From: Maritimibacter sp. | GTDB taxonomy: Bacteria > Pseudomonadota > Alphaproteobacteria > Rhodobacterales > Rhodobacteraceae | Reading direction: 5' to 3' | DNA: 64,000 nt | NCBI GenBank assembly: GCA_017792445.1 | Contig: CP051232.1 | Coordinates: forward strand, 3,384,001-3,448,000 | Part shown: positions 13,399-60,362 of the stretch, piece after piece | Layout: each line of letters begins with the position of its first letter | Position numbering within the stretch: position 1 is the stretch's first letter | Translations under genes and position numbers: made by a program | Notes under the pieces: model-generated | Databases searched by the model: none | Told to the model about the DNA's origin: nothing | What the model saw: only the letters and a program-made list of their open reading frames with translations

Positions 13399-13407
13399 CC
13401 CCGAACC

Positions 13408-13432
13408 CGAAGCGAACCGAACCGAACCGAAC
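13408..13432 (+). repeat. CGAAC pentanucleotide tandem repeat before an SD sequence
   Basis: One degenerate unit (CGAAG, 13408-13412) is followed by four perfect CGAAC units (13413-13432). The array abuts the Shine-Dalgarno GGAGG at 13433-13437 that serves the ATG at 13442. Copy-number change here would alter the 5' context of the Mth938-like mRNA but not a protein. Confidence 0.85.
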
Positions 13433-15282: not shown

Positions 15283-15359
15283 CGGGGCGTAGCGCAGCCT
15301 GGTAGCGCGTCTGTTTTGGGTACAGAAGGTCGTGAGTTCGAATCTCGCCGCCCCGACCA
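15283..15359 (+). tRNA. tRNA-Pro (anticodon UGG)
   Basis: A complete cloverleaf can be drawn. The acceptor stem is CGGGGCG/CGCCCCG (15283-15289 with 15349-15355). The anticodon stem TCTGT/ACAGA encloses the loop TTTGGGT, giving anticodon TGG. The T arm GTGAG-TTCGAAT-CTCGC includes one G-T pair. Discriminator A and an encoded CCA end at 15359. The gene is monocistronic and no integrase or att-like duplication is seen nearby. Confidence 0.96.
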
Positions 15360-34684: not shown

Positions 34685-35065
34685 TCAGGGCGCGCCGTCG
34701 TTGCGGGCGGGCTCGTGCTGCAACAGGCTGTCGAGCATATGGGACAGGTCTTCGATCTCTTCGGCCACGATATGCACCACGCCCGCCTCGCGCTGGACCC
34801 GGCCGGTGACCTTCAGCAGCCGCCCCGCGATCACCGCGCGGCGGAAGCGTTCGTAGATCTTCTTCCAGACCACCACGTTGGATACGCCGGTTTCGTCCTC
34901 CAGCGTGACGAAGATCACCCCCTTCGCGGTGCCCGGCCGCTGCCGCACCAACACCAGCCCCGCCACCGCCACCCGCGCGCCGCCGGGCACGCGGTCCAGC
35001 CACCCGTGCGGGCAGCACGAGGGCGGGCGGGGCCAGTCGTCGGGTACGGCATGCGAGTCGGTCAT
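34685..35065 (-). CDS. Stand-alone DnaE2 C-terminal OB-fold protein, LexA-box controlled
   Basis: This 126-residue protein has a core (about 33-111) that matches the extreme C-terminal OB domain of error-prone polymerase DnaE2. Visible matches are [38 protein letters not shown], and [20 protein letters not shown]. Full DnaE2 is above 1000 residues; the polymerase, PHP and HhH regions are absent here and not adjacent. It has its own ATG at 35065, preceded at two bases by a perfect LexA box. Either it is a functional stand-alone SOS-induced ssDNA-binding factor, or it is the relic of an imuA-imuB-dnaE2 deletion that joined the SOS promoter to the dnaE2 end. The intact frame and lack of stops favour selection, but this is inference. 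Confidence 0.8.
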
Positions 35066-35067
35066 GA

Positions 35068-35082
35068 GAACAAATATAGAAC
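35068..35082 (-). promoter_or_regulatory. LexA (SOS) box overlapping a likely promoter
   Basis: The minus strand reads GTTCTATATTTGTTC, an exact GTTC-N7-GTTC alphaproteobacterial LexA operator. Inside it TATATT (35073-35078) makes a good -10 element, and TTGCCC (35095-35100) gives a -35 with a 16-bp spacer. The predicted transcription start falls on or next to the A of the ATG at 35065, implying a leaderless mRNA. Confidence 0.82.
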
Positions 35083-35115
35083 AAACGCCGTGCCGGGCAA
35101 AGCGTCTCTGCCGGT

Positions 35116-59687: not shown

Positions 59688-60362
59688 ATGGGTATCTGGC
59701 GTCTGGTTCGGGCGGCATTTTTGCTTGCTGCCATCTCGACATCCGGCGCGGCAATCGCCGACGAAGTGCTGAGCGAGTCGAACGACCCCGGGGTCGTTCT
59801 GAACAGTCGGCTGACCGATCTTCTGTCCCGCGAAAAGACGGCGTTGGGCCGTATCGGCGCTGTCCGGCTCGAACGGCTGGCGAACCTGCCGCCGCGCGAA
59901 GACGGCCGCGACGCCCCGAACGGTATCGAATTCTCGACCGCCTTCCTCGATTCCCTGCCCAAGCCCGAGGGCGGCAACGCGTGGCGCTGCCTGACCGAGG
60001 CGCTGTATTTCGAGGCCCGTGGCGAAAGCGTGCGCGGCCAGTTCGCGGTGGCCGAGGTGATCCTGAACCGCGTCGACCGGGCCGAGTTTCCCGATAGCGT
60101 CTGCGGCGTCATCAAGCAGGGCACCGGGCGCCGCTTCCAGTGTCAGTTCACCTATACCTGCGACGGCGCGCCCGAGACGGTGAACGAACCCCTGTCCTTC
60201 GAACGCGCCGGCAAGATCGCCGCGCTGATGCTGGGCGGCGTGGACCGGATGCTGACACGCGGCGCGACGCACTATCACACCGTCGCCGTCGATCCCTACT
60301 GGGCCAGCCGCTTCCCGCGCACCGCGACCATCGGCGTCCACCACTTCTACAACATGCCGTAA
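59688..60362 (+). CDS. SleB-type cell wall hydrolase
   Basis: This 224-residue exported hydrolase has an N-terminal signal peptide ([20 protein letters not shown] then AAIADE). A Hydrolase_2/SleB domain follows with [20 protein letters not shown] (catalytic Glu in the YFEARGE motif), [14 protein letters not shown] and [15 protein letters not shown]. It should cleave peptidoglycan glycan strands. The ATG at 59688 with GGGGAAA upstream is preferred over an in-frame ATG at 59652 that would displace the signal peptide. The 196 bp upstream (59492-59687) are AT-rich and likely hold its promoter. Confidence 0.9.

Follow-up and report, generated by a model that had tools for sequence, protein, structure and literature searches.

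In C-family DNA polymerases the single-stranded template is believed to be held by the OB domain, and one such polymerase, the replicative DnaE of cyanobacteria, is made in two pieces that are rejoined by trans-splicing. The error-prone polymerase DnaE2 (ImuC, PRK05672) belongs to ImuA-ImuB-DnaE2, whose genes the available part of PMC3323433 counts among the SOS genes conserved in alpha- and betaproteobacteria that have more than one chromosome, as belonging to their SOS core. Here we describe, in a 64-kb stretch of a Maritimibacter sp. genome (contig CP051232.1, positions 3,384,001 to 3,448,000; "the window" means this whole stretch of 64,000 nucleotides), a gene that encodes the OB domain of DnaE2 alone, behind its own LexA operator. 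The locus shares with ImuA-ImuB-DnaE2 the same OB domain (positions 948-1040 of the PRK05672 model), a LexA-type box and a genome that also contains imuB and an imuA-like gene; it differs from the known cassettes in that the OB domain has a gene to itself, 1.04 Mb away from the polymerase core, and the components occupy four loci. We consider it probable that DnaE2 was split by gene fission and that the OB protein, whose binding and induction we infer, is a separately induced, single-stranded DNA-binding subunit of a dispersed mutasome.

A DnaE2 without this domain is not without precedent: several such sequences appear in the available part of PMC3919608, which reports there no stand-alone OB domain in trans, and neither taxon nor operator. 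The same part covers the cyanobacterial DnaE split by an intein, like the present case a DnaE-family polymerase in two genes; here, in contrast, the polymerase is DnaE2, cut before its OB domain and with little room for an intein. Stand-alone ImuB-C proteins, found in operons with polymerases (available parts of PMC3765255 and PMC6511836), likewise show a mutasome domain that occurs in fused form as well as in a gene of its own, but theirs is another domain of another protein and is operon-linked, whereas the OB gene is unlinked. Other mutasome variants have been described (PMC12926913, PMC6511836, PMC3765255), and no OB domain in trans is reported in the available parts of these papers. The OB domain goes unmentioned in PMC10421592, as do OB-fold, dnaE, polymerase and imuB in the available main text of a study of induction in Dinoroseobacter shibae (PMC6473078). 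A literature search over titles and abstract openings, which lay outside subscription papers, preprints and supplements, returned no description of a DnaE2 with its OB domain in trans among the matches listed.

The original prediction, made from the DNA letters, held that the gene encodes only the terminal OB fold of DnaE2 in an intact frame, and the domain searches bear this out. Pfam finds in the 126-residue protein the OB fold PF01336 (E 6.2e-14) and no other domain, and the best NCBIfam match is PRK05672, over just the OB positions of its 1047 (E 1.4e-32, against 8e-8 for the best DNA polymerase III alpha model, so that the DnaE2 C-terminus is preferred to the DnaE1 type). The AlphaFold2 model is an OB fold (mean pLDDT 86.6, pTM 0.78), and its Foldseek matches are the OB folds of AspRS, LysRS, RPA and Stn1-Ten1; no C-family polymerase is among the 50 rows listed. 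With AspRS, LysRS, RPA and Stn1-Ten1/CST the protein thus has the common fold, and a search of the PDB by sequence gave no match at E 0.001. Invariant or nearly invariant positions are those of the OB core and the prolines of an N-terminal WPRPP motif. By analogy with what the OB domain does in DNA polymerase III alpha, the protein would bind single-stranded DNA.

The ratio of nonsynonymous to synonymous substitution rates (dN/dS) indicates that the gene is under purifying selection. Compared with its nearest congener (95% identity), dN is 0.022-0.024 and dS 0.33 (NG86) or 0.91 (YN00); of 25 OB gene pairs that share at least 80% identity, 7 yielded a ratio and 18 did not, and all 7 lie below 1 (NG86 0.06-0.34, YN00 0.02-0.13). 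A ratio near 1, which had been named in advance as a reason to give up the idea of a functional gene, is contradicted by these values, each of them under 0.35.

Table 1. Coordinates of the OB gene and its upstream elements (window numbering) and of the other mutasome genes and lexA of the same genome (C1 numbering)
Feature	Position	Strand	Remarks
Stand-alone DnaE2 OB-domain gene, 126 aa	34685..35065	-	ATG 35065, stop 34685-34687, intact ORF
LexA operator GTTC-N7-GTTC, GTTCTATATTTGTTC	35068..35082 (35082-35068)	-	perfect; ends 2 bp before ATG
-10-like TATATT	35073..35078	-	within operator spacer; from sequence
-35-like TTGCCC	35095..35100	-	16 bp upstream of -10; from sequence
dnaE2 core (OB-less)	C1:2372686-2375643	-	985 residues from ATG; model 3-939 of 1047; box GAAC-N7-GAAT
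imuB	G000:C1:1934144-1935196		48% over part, E 1.6e-87; perfect LexA box
imuA-like gene	C1:347284-347700		36%, E 7.6e-12; perfect LexA box
lexA	C1:3295794-3296477		two overlapping perfect GTTC-N7-GTTC boxes just upstream

The counterpart of the OB protein is found in the same genome, a single contig of 4.68 Mb. A search of the whole genome, which the original prediction had suggested, recovered imuB, an imuA-like gene and one DnaE2 at separate loci (Table 1). This sole DnaE2 stops where the OB domain would start and then has only a short tail; because it matches the model up to 939 alone, the domain it lacks is the one encoded in the window. No second copy of the OB gene and no full-length DnaE2, which would unite the polymerase core with the OB domain, came out of the search, and a third match to the DnaE2 model (nearly the whole model, 578 bits) is read as the replicative DnaE1. 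The imuA-like gene, imuB, dnaE2 core and OB gene lie at about 0.35, 1.93, 2.37 and 3.42 Mb, so that no contiguous or near-contiguous imuA-imuB-dnaE2 cassette exists here, and imuB and the imuA-like gene each have their own LexA-type box. Dispersal is incomplete elsewhere: in G194 (handles in G denote genomes, those in L loci) imuA and imuB are close together on one contig. As a separate observation, the DnaE2 core of this genome and those of three relatives (L064, L111, L118, L130) end in HPR-x-x-R-x-F-A/S; these ends resemble the start of the tail that follows the OB domain in fused DnaE2, and the tail seems to have been kept despite OB loss.

Both the operator and the promoter elements that had been proposed for the OB gene are present as described. 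At its promoter the gene carries GTTC-N7-GTTC, the operator of the alphaproteobacterial LexA regulon. The pattern occurs three times in the window against a mean of 2.09 expected, which is chance level, and the weight of the operator therefore comes from its position and its conservation. The two further perfect copies (13403-13417 and 59871-59885, both on the minus strand) have GC-rich spacers. Across relatives, a perfect box lies at most 200 bp upstream of the match start at 68 of 72 stand-alone OB loci, as had been anticipated, against a background of 5 perfect boxes in 153,745 bp of flanks (0.007 expected per 200 bp). The loci without one are L173, L184 (one mismatch), L190 and L202, the last of which (in G083) has a long low-complexity stretch that separates a WPRPP motif from the OB core. 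Box and start codon are separated by a gap of 1-5 bp at 56 of the 68 loci, exactly 2 bp at 41, and 11-34 bp at 12; since the rule was to take as start the first ATG in frame downstream of the box (in L149 a GTG), this gap is partly defined by the box itself.

Not only the half sites are kept. In the 73 boxed OB loci of a set of named genomes the majority spacer is TATNTT (62 to 69 of 73 per fixed position). Of the OB loci with a gap of at most 5 bp, 46 of 56 have a TTG 15-17 bp upstream of the -10 position; of those with a longer gap, 5 of 12 do. The messenger RNA (mRNA) of the window gene is probably leaderless, with its 5' end at the ATG, a prediction made from this geometry: the -10 element precedes the ATG by seven bases, and where a ribosome site would be, there is the operator. 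The other components are similarly equipped: LexA-type boxes precede 42 of 44 OB-less dnaE2 genes (11 perfect, 31 GAAC-N7-GAAT; none at L167 and L169), all 12 imuA genes (11 perfect, 1 GAAC-N7-GAAT) and all 12 imuB genes (all perfect), the imuA and imuB loci coming from 12 genomes chosen because they are well assembled (G051 and 11 that have the split form). Perfect boxes in the flanks number 0 in 28,581 bp for imuA, 3 in 51,568 for imuB and 4 in 210,762 for OB-less dnaE2; GAAC-N7-GAAT was first noticed in the data and counted afterwards, with a background of 0 in 210,762 bp of flank. The altered half site at OB-less dnaE2 (including that of the present genome and L107-L146) perhaps makes a weaker or earlier-released operator.

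The split form is widespread in the family. OB-less DnaE2 occurs in 88 of 198 family genomes, and 82 of these 88 also have a stand-alone OB gene; of the others, 87 have fused DnaE2 only, 20 neither, and 3 an OB gene without OB-less DnaE2. This table merges the OB search, the DnaE2 model search and two follow-ups, with rows from among the matches listed, and its classes should be read with their assignments: fused-DnaE2 genomes whose single OB match went unlisted count as without a stand-alone OB; five of the 88 OB-less calls (G068, G098, G118, G142, G158) and the fused calls of G021, G022, G078, G091, G095, G119 and G155 are judgements from contig-edge or broken pieces; G085 was called fused by frame length; the plasmid copy of G009 was taken as fused; and the 20 "neither" genomes include several incomplete ones. 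Among the three with OB alone, G061, a draft genome, shows an N-terminal piece of DnaE2 where a contig ends, and G178, tallied as stand-alone, is read as a DnaE2 remnant because its locus L173 has no box and has polymerase sequence upstream. Both types can coexist, as in G035, which has a fused DnaE2 beside the split form (L095, L125, L032); we take it to be Dinoroseobacter shibae, with an ImuB 100% identical to that of pDSHI03, the fused cassette on that replicon and the split form chromosomal. In the named-genome set (80 loci kept of 585, possibly overlapping the 198 genomes; L300 and L311 ambiguous), 78 of 80 loci are not fused and 73 of the 78 have a perfect box; genera with the stand-alone form include Ruegeria, Roseovarius, Shimia, Rhodovulum, Gemmobacter, Salipiger and Tropicimonas.

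Class-wide, 176 of 385 genomes have an OB match at E 1e-15. Outside the family, the frames among the matches listed are of about 1000 residues or more except in 11 rows (under 700 residues); 8 of these start less than 1.5 kb from the first base of the contig, and the one that was opened (G499) is a C-terminal piece of DnaE2, a remnant. No convincing stand-alone OB gene outside the family was thus found among the matches listed for these 385 genomes.

One gene fission in one Rhodobacteraceae lineage explains both halves, in that the trees of core and OB domain each show a single split clade with the same fused sister. In the core tree (48 rows) OB-less DnaE2 forms one clade with a support of 91 in the Shimodaira-Hasegawa-like approximate likelihood ratio test (SH-aLRT), sister to the fused cassette type of the same family; with the alignment cut before the OB domain (44 rows) the value is 83. 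In the OB tree (58 rows, L170-L172 missing) the stand-alone proteins form one clade (support 84) beside that same sister. In G194, the deepest OB-less branch of these trees, the OB gene follows the core on the same strand at a distance of about 1 kb (L110 / L175), with an open frame on the opposite strand between them, and the OB protein retains the full ancestral DnaE2 tail HPRDQAKRLFPSRDFH, ending SRDFH. G194 may therefore represent an early stage, in which DnaE2 was cut by an inserted gene and promoter, dispersal coming later.

Across the family the two halves tend to occur, or to be missing, together. On a DnaE1 tree of 61 genomes (a chosen, non-random sample that includes the discordant genomes except G098 and G142; 24 of 58 inner branches weak) the states are interspersed, with 31 changes against a shuffled mean of 32.6 and no excess clustering; this interspersion on the host tree suggests that both halves were lost or replaced many times. 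Supported independent pairs on this tree changed the same way in a mean of 6.6 of 9, in opposite ways in 0.0 and without difference in 2.3 (median p 0.016, range 0.016-0.125; long branches G059, G172 and G090 left out), and without the drafts G061, G064, G162 and G180 in 7.0 of 8. The halves are unlinked in the present genome and, among the matches listed, in most assembled genomes (on different contigs or far apart), and their joint changes for this reason point to joint function over joint deletion.

We hypothesize that DNA damage, through LexA cleavage, would release the imuA-like, imuB, core and OB genes together, and that the OB protein would be translated from a leaderless mRNA starting at its ATG. 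It could then bind the single-stranded template and attach in trans to the end of the DnaE2 core, or sit next to the core via ImuB, which would give back to the ImuA-ImuB-DnaE2 complex the template-binding arm that in other DnaE2s is covalently linked; full polymerase function would require both proteins. The earlier suggestion of a mutasome accessory holds in so far as a part in the SOS mutasome is plausible. It fails in that the OB protein is no addition to a full-length polymerase, because the sole DnaE2 of the genome lacks exactly that domain.

Several observations weigh against this picture. The strongest are G051 (completeness 100, 7 contigs), which has OB, imuA and imuB genes each with a perfect LexA box (L020, L223, L218) and in which a search found no DnaE2 core, and the six genomes with OB-less DnaE2 and no OB match (G044, G064, G098, G142, G162, G180). 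These six are in about 100 to 490 contigs each, yet G044 is 99% complete, and since they show no OB gene the core may work without one. Models of ImuA-ImuB-DnaE2 place the contacts of ImuB on PHP and (HhH)2 and not on OB (available part of PMC12926913), so that no pointer to an ImuB-OB contact is published there; judged by its model range, the OB-less core should keep both PHP and (HhH)2. Clade support is also moderate in both trees, and the OB tree has few columns, with 28 of 55 inner branches weak.

G051 and the six genomes would fit an OB domain that has acquired a new function as an SOS-induced single-stranded DNA-binding factor for ImuA-ImuB, the clamp or another polymerase, while OB-less DnaE2 works alone. 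We regard this as unlikely, since the unlinked halves co-occur and change jointly and the protein is still DnaE2-like (56-79% identity to that of the window among the matches listed, 39-50% in three genomes). Nor is it easy to see the OB gene as a copy taken from a fused DnaE2, for instance from a plasmid cassette, and not as the missing domain of the resident core: fused DnaE2s are common in the family, some of them on plasmids, and the moderate clade support would leave room for such an event, but the position is the same in the OB tree and the core tree, the halves are neighbours in G194 and a single event explains everything, which makes a copy very improbable.

A deletion relic that kept its SOS promoter without function, as the original prediction had also considered, would account for a short frame that is a piece of a larger protein family. 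We reject it, and give it next to no credence, because conservation and dN/dS do not fit: frames are intact across the family, the operator is perfect at nearly all loci and the 7 valued pairs agree. Hardly more credible is a rejoining of the two translated halves, through a split intein or another kind of trans-splicing, into an ordinary full-length DnaE2. Such a product would need space, of which both junction ends offer little, with a median of 23 residues after HPxxLLR in OB-less DnaE2 (6-85, n 44) and of 36 before AGLV in the OB protein (24-58, n 66), the latter partly homologous linker; Pfam saw just the OB fold in the OB protein, although no search was aimed at inteins. The trans-spliced form is rejected because so little room is available.

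Fission into a separately induced subunit thus remains the reading that we favour, and it invites a further, tentative step, which we hold possible but doubtful. A template-binding domain that has become an SOS subunit in its own right, under a promoter of its own, might be a regulated, exchangeable part and not a passive split, polymerase activity being set by OB supply and the OB protein being shareable with ImuB or another polymerase, as G051 could hint. What the OB domain of DnaE2 does in translesion mutagenesis is hard to test in one chain, and here the OB gene can be removed without touching the polymerase, in a system where evolution itself has detached the domain and preserved it across a large family of bacteria. 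If fission is true, LexA-type boxes alone hold together a complex with scattered genes, and a single operator contains almost all of the promoter of a gene that is probably leaderless. Catalogues may class OB-less DnaE2s as truncated and so miss a subunit; a 2026 survey (PMC12926913) states that it dropped truncated sequences before building its trees, and OB-less DnaE2s may have been among them. Apart from the mutasome, the window holds two tRNA-Pro genes less than 14 kb apart (1550-1620 and 15283-15359), both with the anticodon tgg.
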